Shown in pieces: positions 6,872 through 13,361 of a stretch of DNA of 41,637 nt (the first letter of the stretch is position 1; the number at the start of each line of letters is the position of its first letter). Source of the stretch: Gammaproteobacteria bacterium (GTDB lineage: Bacteria; Pseudomonadota; Gammaproteobacteria; JACCXJ01); contig JACCXJ010000021.1 of the NCBI GenBank assembly GCA_013697045.1, forward strand, positions 1 through 41,637. Direction: 5' to 3'. A program made the position numbers and the translations under genes. Under the pieces are notes generated by a model that worked only from the letters and a program-made list of their open reading frames with translations, ran no database searches and had not been told where the DNA came from.

Positions 6872-7837
6872 ATGGGTGAGAAGAGCCGGATGCTGGCAGT
6901 GGACTTCTGCGGGCTTAACTTCAACACCCCGCTGGTACTGCTCTCGGGTTGTGTGGGTTTCGGTGAGGAGTATACCCGTGTGGTCGGTTTCTCGAACCAG
7001 GATGCGGGCGCCATGTGCCTCAAGGGTACCACCCTGGCCTCGCGCCTCGGCAACCCCGCGCATCGGATCGCCGAGACCCCCGCCGGAATGCTGAACGCCA
7101 TCGGGCTCCAGAATCCGGGCGCTCGGACGGTCGTCGATGACATCCTACCGAGGCTCGATTTCACCGAGACGCGCTTCATCGCCAACGTCTCCGGCTCGAC
7201 GATCGAGGAGTATCGGGAGGTTACCCGGATCTTCGACGACTCGCCGATCGACGCCATCGAGATCAACATCTCGTGTCCGAACGTCAAGGAAGGCGGGGTC
7301 ACGTTCGGCAACGATCCGGCGATGTCGGCGCGGGTCGTCGCGGCCTGCCGGGCGGTCACGAAGAAGCCCCTCATCACCAAGCTCTCGCCCAACCAGACGG
7401 ATATCGCGGACAACGCCCGCCGTTGTCTGGAGGCCGGAACGGACGCTTTCGCCGTTATCAATACCATCATGGGCATGGCCATCGATATCGAGGCGCGCCG
7501 TCCGATCCTCGGGAACCGTCAGGGCGGTCTCTCGGGCCCGGCCATCAAGCCCATTGCCCTCCTCAAGGTCCATCAGGTCTACGAGGTGTGCCGGCCCCAT
7601 GGCGTCCCGATCATCGGCCAGGGTGGGATCGCGAGCGCCGCGGATGCCATCGAGTTCCTGCTCGCGGGCGCGACGGCCGTCGGGATCGGCACGGCGCTCT
7701 TCTACGACCCGCTGATCTGTCCCAAGGTCAACGCCGGGATCGTCGCGTACCTGGAGCACCACCGCATCCCGTCGGTCTCGGATCTGATCGGCTCGCTAGA
7801 GCTGCAGTCGCCCGTGTCGGCGTGGTGCAGCGGGTGA
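6872..7837 (+). CDS. pyrD: Dihydroorotate dehydrogenase, class 1 (catalytic subunit)
   Basis: FMN-dependent oxidation of dihydroorotate to orotate in pyrimidine biosynthesis. The TIM-barrel protein begins near [19 protein letters not shown] and contains [16 protein letters not shown], the active-site loop INISCPNV with the class 1 catalytic Cys, [31 protein letters not shown], and the phosphate-binding [13 protein letters not shown] and [12 protein letters not shown]. The Cys, rather than Ser, marks the soluble class 1 (1A/1B) type. The NAD-linked partner subunit (PyrK) is not encoded nearby. ATG 6872 is used. Met at 6890, with GGTGAG about 9 nt upstream, is an equally possible start. It is transcribed away from trmL. 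Confidence 0.9.
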
Positions 7838-8230: not shown

Positions 8231-9973
8231 ATGTACTTGTGTCGCCAAACGTCATCCATCTGGTTGCGAAGGTCTGTCGGGTTAGCCGCCTGGCTCTTGC
8301 TGGCGCCGGTGGCGGAAGCCCAGCGCACGTACACGCCCATCCCGCTGGATAACCCCAATCCTCAGGCGGATGCCCGCTTTGCCGAGGCGGTGGCCGGTAT
8401 CGGGGATGTGAACGGCGATGGTGTGACGGACCTCCTGGTGGGGGCGCCTTTTCAAATCCTAGGCGGCAACCTCAACCAGGGCCGCGCCTTCGTCTTCAGC
8501 GGTGCCAATCGCAGCCTCCTCGTCACCCTCGATCACCCCGCCCCCCAGGGGCTCGCCTTGTTTGGCTCCGCGGTCGCCGGGGCGGGGGATGTGAACCGCG
8601 ACGGCCGGGCAGATCTCCTGGTGGGGGCGCCCGGTCAGAGAGTGGGCGGCCGTGCCGACCAGGGCCAGGCCTACGTCTTGAGCGGCGCCGATGGCCGCCT
8701 CCTCCTTACCTTCGATAACCCCATCCCTCAGGCGGAAGCCGCCTTCGGCGCCGCGGTCGCCGGTGCGGGGGATGTGAACGGCGATGGCGCGCCCGACCTT
8801 TTGGTGGGGGCACCCGAGCAAGACGTGGGTTCTAGTTCTAACGGGGGCCAGGCCTTTGTCTTCAGCGGCGCCGATGGCCGCCTCCTCCTCACCCTGGACG
8901 ATCCATCATTCAACTGCTGCGGCTTTGGCCGCCCGTTGGCCGGGGCCGGGGATGTGAACGGCGACGGCGCGCCCGACCTGCTGGTGGGGGATGACTTTCA
9001 GGGGGTCCATGTCTTCAGCGGCGCCGATGGGAGCGTCCTCCGCACCCTCGATAGACCCCCGGGTGCTGGCTCCTTTGGCGAGGCTCTGGCCGGTATCGGG
9101 GACGTGAACGGCGACGGCTCGCCCGACCTCGTGGTGGGGGCGCCCGGAACCTCCGCGGCTGGCGAACTACAGCAGGGCCGGGCCTTTGTCTTCAGCGGTG
9201 CCGATGCCAGCCTCCTCCGCACCCTCGATCTTCCCATCCCCAACTCGGGTGCCCAGCTTGGCAGCGCGGTGGCCGGCGCCGGGGATGTGAACGGCGATGG
9301 CGTGCCCGATCTCCTTGTGGGGGCGCCCCGTCGAGACCTGGCCGGTGTCGATGGTTCCAGCCAGGGCCAGGCCTTCGTCTTCAGTGGCACCGATGCCAGC
9401 GTGCTTCTCACCCTCGATACCCCGACCCCCGACTCGTTGGCCGGCTTTGGCGAGGTGGTGGCCGGGATCGGGGATGTGGACGGCGATGGCGCGCCTGACT
9501 TCCTCGTGGGGGCGCCCGGTCAAGACGTGGGCGGCCGTGTCCGCCAGGGCCGGGCCTTTGTCTTCGTGAGTGCCCCCGTGCCTGTCGGTCCCGCTGGGGC
9601 CGTGCCTCTCGATCTCGCCTCGACGCAGGTAGCCTGCAATAGCGCCAGGTGCCGGGTCTCCGTCACCTGCAATCTCCCGTCGGCCCTCGGGACCGCGTGC
9701 ACCAACCGGATCGGCCTCTTCGCGCGCGCCCCCAGGCGGCTGGCCGAGGACGCGGCAGGGAAGGCGCCAAGGCGGGTCAGGTTCGCCTTCATCACCGCCA
9801 CCAACGTCCCGCCGGGTCAGACCGCGAACGTACGGCTCAGGCTCACGCCGGCGGGCAAGCGGATCGTCAGGGCGAGCACCACGAAGACGCTCAGGGGCGT
9901 GATCGAGATCAGGAACGCGCCCGGGACCATCATCGACACGACACGGGTAAGGATCAGGCTCAGGCGCAGGTGA
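8231..9973 (+). CDS. Secreted FG-GAP seven-repeat (beta-propeller) protein
   Basis: A 580-residue exported protein. A signal peptide spans residues 1-31 (RRSVGLAAWLLLAPVAEAQ, cleavage near AEA/Q). Seven FG-GAP/VCBS repeats of about 58-65 residues follow (residues about 45-450), each carrying G-D-V-N-x-D-G-x-x-D followed by LLVGAP. The Asp/Asn ladder is an EF-hand-like calcium site. The seventh repeat has GDVDGDGAPD. Seven repeats fit a closed seven-bladed propeller, as in integrin alpha heads. The last about 125 residues form a separate domain with two Cys pairs and a strongly basic end (RVRIRLRRR). The start is fixed by AGGAGGA 7 nt upstream. The role is unknown; surface or extracellular adhesion or scaffolding is plausible. 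Confidence 0.88.
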   Translation: MYLCRQTSSIWLRRSVGLAAWLLLAPVAEAQRTYTPIPLDNPNPQADARFAEAVAGIGDVNGDGVTDLLVGAPFQILGGNLNQGRAFVFSGANRSLLVTLDHPAPQGLALFGSAVAGAGDVNRDGRADLLVGAPGQRVGGRADQGQAYVLSGADGRLLLTFDNPIPQAEAAFGAAVAGAGDVNGDGAPDLLVGAPEQDVGSSSNGGQAFVFSGADGRLLLTLDDPSFNCCGFGRPLAGAGDVNGDGAPDLLVGDDFQGVHVFSGADGSVLRTLDRPPGAGSFGEALAGIGDVNGDGSPDLVVGAPGTSAAGELQQGRAFVFSGADASLLRTLDLPIPNSGAQLGSAVAGAGDVNGDGVPDLLVGAPRRDLAGVDGSSQGQAFVFSGTDASVLLTLDTPTPDSLAGFGEVVAGIGDVDGDGAPDFLVGAPGQDVGGRVRQGRAFVFVSAPVPVGPAGAVPLDLASTQVACNSARCRVSVTCNLPSALGTACTNRIGLFARAPRRLAEDAAGKAPRRVRFAFITATNVPPGQTANVRLRLTPAGKRIVRASTTKTLRGVIEIRNAPGTIIDTTRVRIRLRRR

Positions 9974-10175
9974 CAAGGGCGGGGGATCAATGGCTAGTAC
10001 GGCGGCTACCTGCAGCGCGATCCGCCACATCCCGACAGCCTTCGGTGGAACCGCCCTCGGCGTTCGCCGGAGGCAGGCTTGCTCTAATCTCGCGCAGGCC
10101 CGGTGGCCGAGGCAAGCTCATGAAGGGCCGCTTGCTCCGACTCGTCGACCCGAGTCCTGCCCGGTCCGAGGATAC

Positions 10176-10940
10176 TTAACCGTCTTCGGCCAGGCGTTCG
10201 CTGAAGGTCTCGCAGGCTTGCATGCGGCCGGACTGAAACCCGCGGCGGAACCAGGCCACGCGTTGCTTCGACGACCCATGCGTCCAGGTCTCCGGGTTGA
10301 CGGAACCGCCGCTCTGTCTCTGAATGCGATCGTCGCCGATCGCCGCTGCCGCACCCAGGGCCTCTTCCACGTCACCCTGCTCGAGGATGCCGCGCTGCCT
10401 GGTTGCACTCCCCCACACCCCGGCCAGGCAGTCCGCCTGTAGCTCGAGGCGCACCGAGAGCGCCGCGGCTCGCCCCGGCCGGCTGTTCTGCACGCGCCGG
10501 ACCTCGGCATCGATGCCGAGCAGGTGCTGCACATGATGTCCGATCTCGTGCGCGGTGACGTAGGCCTGGGCGAAATCACCGGGGGCGCCGAAGCGCTGTT
10601 TGAGATCGCGATAGAATCCCAGGTCGATGTAGACCTTCTGATCGAGCGGACAATAGAAGGGCCCCATGGCCGACTCGGCAAACCCGCAGTTGGACCGCAC
10701 AGCGTCGGTGAAGAGCACGAGCTTGGCGTCCTGATAGCGTTTGTCGCTCTGGGGAAATCCCGTATGCCAGGTGCCCTGTACATCATCGAGGACGAATGAC
10801 ACGAAGTCGACGAGCTTCTCCTCCTCGGGTGAGGTCTGGCGGGGAGTCGATGTCCCGCCCGGCAAGGGACTCTCGGGACCTTGGTCGAGCAGGGCCAGGA
10901 AGTCTTGTCCCGTGATGAGACTCACGACCAAGAGTATGAC
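10176..10940 (-). pseudogene. ypfJ: Neutral zinc metallopeptidase (YpfJ family), 3' portion of a gene split by insertion
   Basis: Encodes all but the first 38 residues of a PF04228-type putative metallopeptidase. The visible catalytic features are AHEIGHHVQ (HExxH zinc motif) and a downstream E-x-x-AD (LELQADCLAGVW). The C-terminus is intact (SGRMQACETF and onward). The membrane-anchor start of the protein is missing here. It lies on the same strand at 12491-12611, and joining the two across the 11-bp direct repeat AAGAGTATGAC restores one continuous frame. The remaining frame can only start at TTG 10931, without a ribosome site or full membrane segment, so a functional product is unlikely. 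Insertion is the clearest explanation. Confidence 0.85.
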
Positions 10941-10960
10941 AGCAGGCTTGCGCTACCTCT
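10930..10960. repeat. Left boundary repeat of the cassette array
   Basis: The 11-bp AAGAGTATGAC (target copy) is followed by AGCAGGCTTGCGCTACCTCT. The same 20-mer recurs at 11746-11765 in the middle of the array, and the 11-mer recurs at 12490-12500 (with one change at 11735-11745). It marks the left end of the inserted DNA in the metallopeptidase gene. Confidence 0.85.
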
Positions 10961-11745
10961 TGGTGATTGTGACACCGCCTGCTGTGACATCGCCAATTTC
11001 CCAAATTCGGAAAATGTTGTCTTTCTCTTTGCGGGGGTCATTCCAGAAATGAATTAGTACTGGCTTCCGAAGAATATCAGCTATATCTGTTTCTCGATTA
11101 AGAACCGTAGCATCACCGCCCTTCCCCTGTAAGAAACCAGCTATATCAAAATCAATTACTTCAGTAACCACTATCACGTTCTCTTTAGTAGCAAGGTTAA
11201 ATATAGTGCGAAGCTGGTATGCTTGAGGTATCGCTATTAATGGATCATACGTAACAAATGTCCTTATGACCCAAGCTTTACCACTTCCAGGTACGCTTAG
11301 TTTAAGTACGTTCTTATTAGCATGCGAAGCGGGTTTACTGTAGTTTGGATTGTAGGGTAAAATAATATTACATAGGGCAGCAGGTATGCTGCCTAGAGAA
11401 GGTGTTGTCGTCCTAGTCCAGTGGGTTTCATCTTTATGCCGTGGCGGGTTCAGCCCTTGAGCAATCATTTTGTTCTTATAGGCTTTATTTATTGGGAAAT
11501 GGCAGAACCGTTCTTGACTATCAAAGTGAATAGTCACTTTGCTGAAATTAGCTGACTCACTAGTAGATATCATTAGAAGATCATGCCGCTCGTTAGTCCA
11601 TATACGCCATACGGACGATAAGAACTTGTCTCCTTCAGCCACTACAAAACGACAGGTATTTTGATTTGTAGCTTTCATGAACGAAACTGGACTTGCGCCA
11701 GCGCTGCGAGTCGTGGGAAATAGTTGACATATTGAAGAGTATGAG
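10941..11745 (-). mobile_element. Cassette A: one-ORF insertion unit in the metallopeptidase gene
   Basis: This 805-bp unit starts with AGCAGGCTTGCGCTACCTCT, contains a single minus-strand ORF (10953-11678), and ends in a 54-bp block (11691-11744) that closes with AAGAGTATGAG. It is clearly more AT-rich than the flanking chromosome. No transposase or recombinase is encoded and there are no terminal inverted repeats. It lies head-to-tail with cassette B, which has the same ends. Both lie inside the YpfJ-family gene, bounded by an 11-bp direct repeat. No integron attC core (GTTRRRY/RYYYAAC) was recognised. Confidence 0.7.
10953..11678 (-). CDS. Uncharacterised cassette-borne protein
   Basis: A 241-residue soluble-looking protein with no signal peptide or membrane helix and no family I recognise. 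Its composition (Asn, Lys, Ile, Phe rich) and AT-rich DNA differ from neighbouring genes, which suggests transfer. Visible features are VWRIWTNERHDLLMIS near the N-terminus and HFWNDPRKEKDNIFRIWEIG near the C-terminus, with a repeated xRIWxxx pattern at both ends. The frame extends further upstream through the junction repeat. Met at 11678 is chosen because it is the first start inside the cassette, though no clear ribosome site precedes it. It fills almost the whole cassette, ending 13 bp from the boundary. Confidence 0.55.
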   Translation of the reverse strand: MKATNQNTCRFVVAEGDKFLSSVWRIWTNERHDLLMISTSESANFSKVTIHFDSQERFCHFPINKAYKNKMIAQGLNPPRHKDETHWTRTTTPSLGSIPAALCNIILPYNPNYSKPASHANKNVLKLSVPGSGKAWVIRTFVTYDPLIAIPQAYQLRTIFNLATKENVIVVTEVIDFDIAGFLQGKGGDATVLNRETDIADILRKPVLIHFWNDPRKEKDNIFRIWEIGDVTAGGVTITKR

Positions 11746-11765
11746 AGCAGGCTTGCGCTACCTCT
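11691..11765. repeat. Central 75-bp junction repeat between cassettes A and B
   Basis: This is the only complete copy of the junction sequence: ACTTGCGCCAGCGCTGCG, a TAGTTGACA stretch, AAGAGTATGAG, then AGCAGGCTTGCGCTACCTCT. Its first 54 bp match 12446-12499 with only a handful of differences, and its last part matches the left boundary at 10930-10960. The motif CTTGCGC is directly repeated at both ends of the site. This half-full-half arrangement is what tandem site-specific integration of circular units would leave. Confidence 0.85.
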
Positions 11766-11838
11766 GTCTGATGGTTCTGTGAAAGTTATGCCGATAAGGA
11801 AAAGAGATTGCGCTTGAGGGGCCGAAAAGCTAATGACA

Positions 11839-12396
11839 TCAAGTGGCGGCAGCACATGATGGACAGACCTCGGGTGTTCCATTACGCGCGAACGCTAAGC
11901 CACACAACTTGCACGGGTGTAGCGCAACGCCCACTGCGACGGCGTAGCCAGCACCGAAAGCGGTTCCCGATTCAGCCTTAAGTTCAAGGTCAGCGTACTT
12001 GAAGCGAAAGGACGGACCGTCTAACACGAGTTGTAAGTCGATGTTGTGGTACTTGGCATAGGTGATGGCACCACTTTGGGCGCCGCATATGGAAACAATA
12101 ATGCCCTTCACTGAAGAGTCTGCGCCCAGCCTTTGTGCAAGATCGTCGATCGTGGACTTGAGCACTTTGACATGCCACAGCTTAATAGAATAGCGTAGGT
12201 GCTTGCACTCGACTACAACGAGCGTGTGCGGGGATGTGTTTCTATCGACAAAGGAGACGTCAAGCTGATGCCGAACTCCGGAAATACCAACACGGCGATT
12301 ACGACTACCGCCGCGCACGTCGGAGGCGTCTCGATTCCGCAGGAGCGTCCGCGCGAGTTCTGCGACAAGCTCCTCATAACGTGCTGATTCGCTCAT
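11839..12396 (-). CDS. PD-(D/E)XK (Mrr-like) nuclease-domain protein with C-terminal zinc ribbon
   Basis: A 185-residue protein. An N-terminal helix (YEELVAELARTLL) is followed by a restriction-endonuclease-like fold: RHQLDVSF supplies the catalytic Asp, and LVVVECKHL supplies the E-x-K pair. Then come WHVKVLKSTIDDLA and VKGIIVS, which fit the Mrr/PD-(D/E)XK core. The C-terminus has CKLCGLAF and CPSC, a four-Cys zinc ribbon. This architecture is typical of nucleases in restriction or anti-phage contexts, but the target is unknown. Met at 12396 is preferred (GGGGGCG about 10 nt upstream); an in-frame ATG at 12423 is possible. It is the sole gene of cassette B. Confidence 0.7.
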   Translation of the reverse strand: MSESARYEELVAELARTLLRNRDASDVRGGSRNRRVGISGVRHQLDVSFVDRNTSPHTLVVVECKHLRYSIKLWHVKVLKSTIDDLAQRLGADSSVKGIIVSICGAQSGAITYAKYHNIDLQLVLDGPSFRFKYADLELKAESGTAFGAGYAVAVGVALHPCKLCGLAFARNGTPEVCPSCAAAT

Positions 12397-12445
12397 GCTG
12401 ATGCTACGCCCCCAGGGAACCATGTGACATCAACTAGATAGTGAG

Positions 12446-12500
12446 ACTTGCGCTAGCGCTGCGGGTCGGGTGGAATAGTTGACACATAGAAGAGTATGAC
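12446..12500. repeat. Right boundary repeat of the cassette array
   Basis: A block beginning ACTTGCGCTAGCGCTGCG and ending in AAGAGTATGAC, aligned without gaps to 11691-11745. The terminal 11-mer is the second copy of the target duplication flanking the whole insertion. Beyond it (12501) the metallopeptidase coding frame resumes. Confidence 0.85.
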
Positions 12501-12611
12501 CACCCCGCCGAGCCCGAGGCGGGCGCCTGCCGGATACCGGCGGGCTCCCGGCGCGCCTTCGTCACGCCGGTCTTCCAGGTTGGCGCTGCGCTCACCGCGT
12601 CTCCAACGCAT
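12491..12611 (-). pseudogene. ypfJ: 5' portion of the interrupted YpfJ-family metallopeptidase gene
   Basis: Reading the minus strand from ATG 12611 gives the family N-terminus MRWRRGERSANLEDRR, then a Gly/Ala/Arg stretch leading into a membrane segment (LGLGGVVIL). It runs in frame across the 11-bp repeat into LVVSLITGQDFLALLDQ at 10931. AGGT lies 9 nt before the ATG. It is too short for the frame track but is clearly the missing start of the gene at 10176-10940. The vapC-like gene ends only 53 bp upstream, so the metallopeptidase gene was probably transcribed from the same direction. Confidence 0.85.
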
Positions 12612-12664
12612 GTCGATCGTACCTGCTCGTTACAATGCCTCTGTTGCACCCCGTACGCGTATCG

Positions 12665-13099
12665 TCACGCGAGGAATGGGTTGCGCACCCGCACCGACCC
12701 GTACAGGCGGTCGTGCTGAAAATCCTCCGAAACGATCTCGTCAAGGCCGAAGTATTCGGCATAGGCCCAAAGGTGCGCGTCGAACCACGAGAGCCGATAG
12801 GCTGCAGCACCTCTGAGAGCGCCGCGAACGATGCCTTCGGTGGGATAGAGAATGTCGAATTGCATGAGCAATTCCTCGGCCTCGCGCCGGGCATCGTCGG
12901 GACTGAGCAGGGGTAGGCCATTCGCTGTGGGACGTGCGACGGCCGCCACGAATTCTACGATGGCCTGATAAGGTACCCGCAAGCTGCCTTGCGCGATGCC
13001 CGTGCGCAGCAATTCGGTCGCGATCTGCCGTTTGCGAGGAAAGCGGGCGTCGAAGCGGTAGACGAGGACATTAGTGTCCACCAACGAGGCCACGGTCAT
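12665..13099 (-). CDS. vapC: PIN-domain toxin (VapC-type ribonuclease)
   Basis: A 144-residue PIN-domain protein. Asp8 in SLVDTNVLVY is the first acidic residue. The second acidic position is in AIVEFVAA, and the third/fourth are in SWFDAHLWAYAEYFG and IVSEDFQHDR. These are the conserved metal-binding residues of VapC endoribonucleases, which cleave tRNA or rRNA when free of antitoxin. AGGAGCTCT precedes ATG 13099. Its start overlaps the 3' end of the AbrB-type antitoxin gene by 29 bp, a typical coupled toxin-antitoxin layout. Confidence 0.88.
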   Translation of the reverse strand: MTVASLVDTNVLVYRFDARFPRKRQIATELLRTGIAQGSLRVPYQAIVEFVAAVARPTANGLPLLSPDDARREAEELLMQFDILYPTEGIVRGALRGAAAYRLSWFDAHLWAYAEYFGLDEIVSEDFQHDRLYGSVRVRNPFLA

Positions 13100-13361
13100 A
13101 GAGCTCCTGCCGGGTCCACCCGCGTTCTGCGGCCGGCTTTAGAGGGTGTGCCGCTTCGCGATCACGCTGGCGTGCCGTCGCCTGATCGAAGAGCTTCAGG
13201 CGTTCATGGGCTTGCATACCGGAACGTTTGTTCTTGGCAGGGACGACACGCACCGCCTCGCCGGCTGGGACCCAATCGACTTCGTCGCCCGGCCGGATCC
13301 CGAACTGGTCCGCGACCGCTTTGGGGATCGTCACTTGAAGCTTGCTGGTCACTCTGCCCAC
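13071..13361 (-). CDS. vapB: AbrB/MazE-type antitoxin (VapB)
   Basis: A 96-residue protein starting with GTG. Residues 1-45 are a SpoVT/AbrB swapped-hairpin DNA-binding domain (RVTSKLQVTIPKAVADQFG, IRPGDEVDWV, VRVVPA). The C-terminal half (HERLKLFDQATARQRDRE and onward) should wrap the PIN toxin. It overlaps the toxin gene and is presumably an autorepressor of the pair. No operator palindrome was obvious just upstream. It follows the TPR gene by about 60 bp on the same strand. Confidence 0.85.
   Translation of the reverse strand: MGRVTSKLQVTIPKAVADQFGIRPGDEVDWVPAGEAVRVVPAKNKRSGMQAHERLKLFDQATARQRDREAAHPLKPAAERGWTRQELYDRGLVGGH

Follow-up and report, generated by a model that had tools for sequence, protein, structure and literature searches.

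Two One-Gene Units with Common Ends Inside a Gammaproteobacterial ypfJ Gene: A Candidate Array of Serially Integrated Circular Elements

Introduction

How two short units, each bearing a different single gene, came to lie head to tail inside the coding sequence of a metallopeptidase gene is the question raised by a contig of a draft gammaproteobacterial genome. The assembly comprises 4.57 Mb in 417 contigs and is 90% complete; the window, i.e., the whole stretch of DNA that was analyzed (41.6 kb), corresponds to the whole of contig C18. The locus was first described in a sequence-only reading, which proposed serial integration of circular cassettes by a recombinase acting in trans or nested insertion of a non-autonomous element family. 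Here, the anatomy of the array, its cargo, its relationship to the integrons of the same genome and its distribution among other genomes are described, and the explanations of its origin are weighed against one another.

The Interrupted ypfJ Gene

The host gene, encoding a ypfJ-type (Zn_peptidase) zinc metallopeptidase, lies on the minus strand and is interrupted at a single point (Table 1). When the flanks were joined in silico through one copy of the 11-mer AAGAGTATGAC, an open frame of 291 amino acids was obtained, the product of which matches positions 1–290 of PF04228 in a single stretch (346.6 bits) and can be aligned over its full length with the orthologues of two further genomes in the class. 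The sequence-only reading had claimed that ypfJ is in frame across the array; the matches of the two parts to positions 1–45 and 45–290 of the model agree with the rejoined frame on this point, and the alignment with the two orthologues bears out the colinearity of the halves with homologues. Given the whole-model match and the end-to-end alignment of the rejoined protein, the ancestral empty site most likely contained the 11-mer once, the empty site meant here being one rebuilt by joining the flanks and not a natural one. Within the rejoined gene, the 11-mer encodes V-I-L in a membrane segment. Just upstream of the split gene, at positions 12665–13361, a MazE-type antitoxin gene is followed by a PIN-domain gene (a VapBC-like pair).

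Organization of the Two Units

The two halves of ypfJ are separated by two head-to-tail units, located at positions 10930–11734 (805 bp) and 11735–12489 (755 bp). The sequence AAGAGTATGA occurs exactly three times in the window, at 10930, 11735 and 12490, i.e., at the three boundaries of the array (0.04 occurrences expected; no shuffle reached three), and the base that follows it, the 11th, is G only in the middle copy, the two outer copies having C. The left ends of the units (10930–10960 and 11735–11765) share 97% identity over 31 bp, and the right ends (11690–11744 and 12445–12499) share 87% identity over 55 bp. The sequence-only reading was accurate as to the lengths and orientation of the units, their common left end, the different single open reading frame (ORF) in each, and the 11-bp repeat around the array with one change in the middle; its "same" right end of 54 bp proved to be the 55-bp stretch just described, in which 7 of the 55 positions differ.

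In contrast to the ends, the interiors of the units are unrelated (local alignment score of 12, against a shuffle median of 13), and the composition of the array is foreign, the G+C content being 42.7% in unit 1 and 54.2% in unit 2 as compared with 63% in the window. Because the ends are alike, the interiors unrelated and the G+C contents unequal, the two units with common ends hold different genes of different origin. A BLAST search of the genome with the middle junction returned, apart from the junction itself, only the outer right and left ends of the array (E-values of 1.3e-12 and 1.0e-7, respectively). Terminal inverted repeats, which the sequence-only reading had also reported to be missing, were not detected above background, since the inverted local alignments of the unit ends were matched by 41% and 12% of shuffles; moreover, neither a transposase, an intron nor a solid dif site was found at the array.

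Unit 1 has a 9-bp perfect hairpin, ACAGCAGGC/GCCTGCTGT, with an inner GGTG/CACC stem, at its left end (10940–10988); the hairpin is missing from unit 2 and was put aside. A sequence that resembles the unit left end at 13 of 14 bases, GCAGGCTTGCTCTA, is located about 100 bp past the end of ypfJ (window positions 10073–10086), probably by chance.

Table 1. Positions of the array features in the window and of the attC sites of the contig C156 integron
Feature	Position	Strand	Remark
Left core copy, AAGAGTATGAC	10930–10940	+	Host/unit 1 junction, attL-like
Unit 1 left end, AGCAGGCTTGCGCTACCTCT	10941–10960	+	Identical to 11746–11765
ORF1, 241 aa, in AT-rich unit (43% G+C)	10953–11678	-	No known family
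Right end of unit 1 (45 bp, up to core)	11690–11734	+	With core, 55 nt at 87% to 12445–12499
Complete unit/unit junction, 76 bp	11690–11765	+	attP-like; whole junction nowhere else in own genome
Possible tyrosine-recombinase core (11-6-11), AGTTGACATAT TGAAGA GTATGAGAGCA	11722–11749	+	16/26 to own dif
Middle core copy, AAGAGTATGAG, one change	11735–11745	+	Between units
Unit 2 left end, AGCAGGCTTGCGCTACCTCT	11746–11765	+	Identical to 10941–10960, 20/20 after core
ORF2, 185 aa	11839–12396	-	Mrr/PD-(D/E)xK-like nuclease domain (ECK motif), probable; C-terminal CxxC...CxxC zinc ribbon
Right end of unit 2 (45 bp, up to core)	12445–12489	+	With core, pairs with 11690–11744
Right core copy, AAGAGTATGAC	12490–12500	+	Unit 2/host junction, attR-like
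ypfJ 3′ part	10176–10929 (PF04228 match reported for 10176–10931)	-	PF04228 positions 45–290, E 3e-94
ypfJ 5′ part	12501–12611	-	Start codon ATG at 12611; PF04228 positions 1–45, E 5e-4
Canonical attC sites, contig C156	4148–4228, 4722–4809, 5677–5739, 6042–6115		

Cargo Genes

The stop codon of ORF1 falls within the shared left end. This ORF showed no family or structure match and had no relative in anything searched. ORF2 is probably an Mrr/PD-(D/E)xK-like nuclease; it matches Mrr_cat (E-value of 0.0058, covering the ECK motif) and a rubredoxin-like ribbon (E-value of 8e-4), and the label is not secure because both matches are below the gathering thresholds. A match to CARF_PDDEXK has an E-value of about 0.01. 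Among 274 genomes of the class, ORF2 gave two weak nuclease-domain matches and ORF1 gave none. Pattern searches of viral contigs for ORF1 and ORF2 returned no matches, and tblastn detected neither ORF in plasmids nor ORF2 in phages, the phage comparison of ORF1 having been made as DNA within the whole array and not as protein. No relative of either ORF was found in the PDB, and single-sequence folds of the two proteins were too poor to use (pLDDT of 41 and 33). An Mrr-like nuclease such as that suggested for one of the units is the kind of cargo met in defense islands.

Integrons of the Same Genome and the attC Test

The same genome contains real but decayed integrons. Contig C156 (1–6234) carries a chromosomal integron with an IntI (TIGR02249, 265 bits) that is frameshifted near 1214–1278 and with the four attC sites given in Table 1; its first cassette holds a gene for a TIR-like protein that is apparently frameshifted too. 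A second integron remnant is located on contig C403 (6884–10535), where attC model matches at 6884, 8253 and 9082 adjoin IntI fragments in two frames (9979–10535). Further IntI-like fragments are found on contigs C284, C47, C139, C391, C241, C152 and C319, and the load of dead integron integrases is unusual for one species. Because the genome is so rich in integron remnants, the possibility that the array consists of integron cassettes was taken seriously.

Ten attC sites, five of them taken from the genome itself and five from plasmid integrons, served to build a covariance model of attC with 48 positions. Held-out attC controls were found with scores of 27.8–41.7 bits (L096:5065, L098:2572, L097:9715, L047:7996 and L092:4921), whereas the window gave no match at E ≤ 10; with the filters off, its highest score was 5.2 bits and did not lie at a junction. 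This agrees with the statement of the sequence-only reading that no attC cores are recognizable. Folded as single strands, as that reading had called for, neither the middle junction nor the right end did better than shuffles. The crossover position of attC is G|TT of the core site (PMC12901181). At the array, no cassette boundary at G|TT of GTTRRRY was found: the boundary repeat is AAGAGTATGA, and the left boundary has no GTT. The covariance model and the non-G|TT boundary thus speak against the units being attC-type integron cassettes.

Search for Further Copies and for a Recombinase

Searches for the junction in 56 relatives, 369 genomes of the class (by BLAST and by profile) and 399 genomes of the phylum, samples that overlap one another, returned nothing above chance except this locus, and low matches with E-values of 0.01–0.1 were fewer than chance expects for that many genomes. 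Among about 85,000 species genomes, an exact pattern of the left end, AGCAGGCTTGCGCTACCTCT, had no match, and one of the right end, CTTGCGCNAGCGCTGCGNGT, had 33 matches, all attributable to chance, none of which is followed downstream by TTGACA or the core. Three junction patterns gave chance matches or none in viral contigs, comparison of the whole array with plasmid and phage records was negative, and no complete junction was found elsewhere in the genome itself. These results support the rarity of the junction; its absence is unproven, as exact patterns miss relatives with a single change.

No recombinase is encoded in the array or in the window. The genome codes for many tyrosine recombinases, and the assembly contains 16 Phage_integrase matches, none of which adjoins a similar junction. 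The sequence-only reading had looked for support in the same junction around other genes elsewhere, in empty sites with one core copy and in an associated recombinase; the junction is absent from the other genomes searched, no natural empty site was found, and a recombinase turned up neither in the window nor beside a similar junction in the assembly. On contig C176, a gene for an IS91-type (Y2-like) transposase lies beside a gene for a 308-aa tyrosine recombinase.

The genome's own dif site is located on contig C319 (C319:20692), away from the array. Among about 260 window chunks compared with it, the 28-mer at the middle junction gave the highest match (16/26) and lies in register with the core, while the right junction is unremarkable (13/26) and the left junction matches at 11/26. 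The inverted symmetry of 11722–11749 (6/11) is reached at 5% of positions and is not above background. The comparison is no more than a hint that this segment might be a tyrosine-recombinase core.

Origin of the Array

The explanation given a little better than an even chance is that two small non-autonomous elements, each a circle with one gene, were integrated at the locus serially and site-specifically by a recombinase acting in trans. Each element would consist of one gene and two non-identical ends, and the recombinase, most likely of the tyrosine type, would insert the circles at the 10–11 bp core in ypfJ. Recombination of a circle (right end, core, left end) with the chromosomal core would give the order host, core, left end ... 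right end, core, host, and the first integration would accordingly split ypfJ and leave a core at both ends. A second circle would recombine with either of the new hybrid sites and leave one complete junction in the middle, resulting in the order host, core, unit 1, attP-like circle junction, unit 2, core, host (attL-unit-attP-unit-attR). A half-full-half layout such as this, in which every boundary has a core copy, must result when attP × attB recombination is followed by attP × attL or attP × attR, and serial circle integration is preferred because it is the most economical account of these junctions. The asymmetric ends without a terminal inverted repeat fit att arms, as expected, and not most DDE transposons. 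The explanation is further favoured by the common ends around unrelated interiors of unequal G+C content, by the dif-like 28-mer in register with the middle core, by the many tyrosine recombinases of the genome and by the like layout of SGI1 tandem arrays; the weakness of the match to dif counts against it. The units may be mobile at present. The proposal of serial circular integration put forward in the sequence-only reading thus stands as the most economical one, the attC alternative having failed and the rebuilt one-copy empty site being consistent with it, but neither another junction nor a recombinase turned up to reinforce it. That the array is the first seen example of a separate, integron-independent cassette system, with one-gene circles, a 76-bp double-stranded junction, a fixed 10–11 bp core and a dedicated recombinase, appears unlikely, though worth keeping in view.

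Common ends with differing cargo could also mean that the units are a pair of related non-autonomous transposons (a mobile insertion cassette family), in which a passenger gene replaced the transposase and AAGAGTATGA(C) is a target-site duplication of 10–11 bp, the second copy having struck the target duplication of the first in the same orientation. Mobile insertion cassettes with passenger genes have already been described, and the length of the direct repeat suits target duplications of the IS4 type, which are 9–12 bp long. The direct repeats of 10–11 bp at the boundaries are known from one site only, and a single locus with two units fits a pre-existing common core and a target duplication alike. 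However, no terminal inverted repeat rises above shuffles, two insertions in the same orientation at the same 10 bp need a highly site-specific transposase, and no transposase-bearing copy was found either in the genome, which is 90% complete, or in the other sequences searched; this origin is regarded as rather improbable. Alternatively, IntI might have placed integron cassettes with degenerate attC sites directly into ypfJ, using a secondary site that resembles attG. This reading would draw on the genuine integrons with attC arrays and the many IntI remnants of the genome, on single-gene units whose unequal G+C contents look cassette-like, and on a weak CATSAAC...GTTGACA pairing around the right end, and it is established that cassettes can insert into genomes at attG (Loot et al., 2024, as cited in PMC12901181). 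Against it, the attC model is negative in the window while recovering the held-out sites, the common core lies within AAGAGTATGA and not at G|TT of GTTRRRY, and the junction folds no better than shuffles, which leaves it quite improbable.

The in-register resemblance of the middle site to dif (16/26), together with the one-gene dif modules known in Acinetobacter plasmids, would suit an XerCD-dependent module (of the dif module or IMEX type) with a diverged dif-like site. This is judged very unlikely, as the chromosomal dif lies elsewhere, the right and left junctions match it poorly, the region that is duplicated does not correspond to a 28-bp Xer site, and an XerD arm is lacking on the side of the host. 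An assembly artefact, in which a fragmented assembly (metagenome or draft) wrongly joined foreign sequence to ypfJ, might be suspected from the 417 contigs, the repeats within the array and the uniqueness of the locus; yet the host/array overlaps of 10–11 bp are too short for k-mer joining but identical on both sides and frame-restoring, and single-base differences between the junctions of the units show that these are not collapsed repeats, so that an artefact is highly improbable. A group I or group II intron or another structured RNA was rejected, an Rfam search over 9900–13100 having returned only two chance-level matches at E ≤ 5.

Comparison with Known Mobile Elements

The sequence-only reading knew of no described element with such a layout, which was too strong a statement: tandem arrays of SGI1 and the accretion of CIMEs and ICEs have the same att layout. 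Tandem SGI1 arrays are organized as DR-L, element, attP, element, DR-R, with 18-bp direct repeats at the outer ends (PMC2297512). The ypfJ array resembles them in its short direct repeats at the outer ends, in an attP-like complete junction where tandem chromosomal SGI1 copies have an intact attP, and in the one-copy (here rebuilt) empty site; SGI1, however, is a large island with its own integrase and forms identical copies, whereas the array units are about 0.8 kb long, lack an integrase and carry a different gene each. Integrase-less CIMEs accrete via att recombination. Like the array units, such elements (CIMEs and accreting ICEs/IMEs) are flanked by att sites and are mobilized and stacked by a recombinase in trans, but CIMEs, which usually derive from ICEs or IMEs by decay, span many kb and occupy tRNA or 3′-end sites, and the array units hold one gene and lie within coding sequence.

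The att layout is thus known, while the scale and content are, to our knowledge, new: one-gene units of about 0.8 kb without an integrase, with differing cargo behind conserved ends, inside a coding sequence. If the units move as proposed, neither an integron nor a recombinase of their own would be needed for single genes to be captured, swapped and stacked, and, if this is true, the pool of "cassette" genes would be wider than attC-based searches detect. With one locus in one draft genome, the value of the array is that of a testable lead and not of an established system; the prediction is a circle with the 76-bp junction (GACTTGCGC...AAGAGTATGA...AGCAGGCTTGCGC) together with an empty ypfJ containing one AAGAGTATGAC.

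Integron cassettes share with the array one promoter-poor gene per unit, common junctions, a composition that differs per unit and the head-to-tail order; the array differs in having no attC by the covariance model, a 76-bp junction conserved on both sides of the core and a core that is not G|TT. Dif modules and IMEX are likewise small modules bounded by tyrosine-recombinase sites, to which the weakly dif-like middle core of the array may be compared, but the array is not at dif and has neither solid XerC/XerD arms nor alternating inverted sites. Mobile insertion cassettes (MICs) have clear terminal inverted repeats. Along with other passenger-bearing non-autonomous transposons, MICs resemble the array in their common ends, passenger gene, lack of a transposase and direct repeats of 10–11 bp, and the array differs from MICs in having no terminal inverted repeats. 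SEs are gene-disrupting gammaproteobacterial elements with a joint region in which a 6-bp spacer is flanked by imperfect inverted motifs (PMC10214605). The array differs from them in that SEs carry the genes intA, tfp, intB and srap, and its 11-6-11 symmetry is at background level; what the array has in common with SEs is the disruption of a gene and a possible 11-6-11 motif layout at the middle junction.
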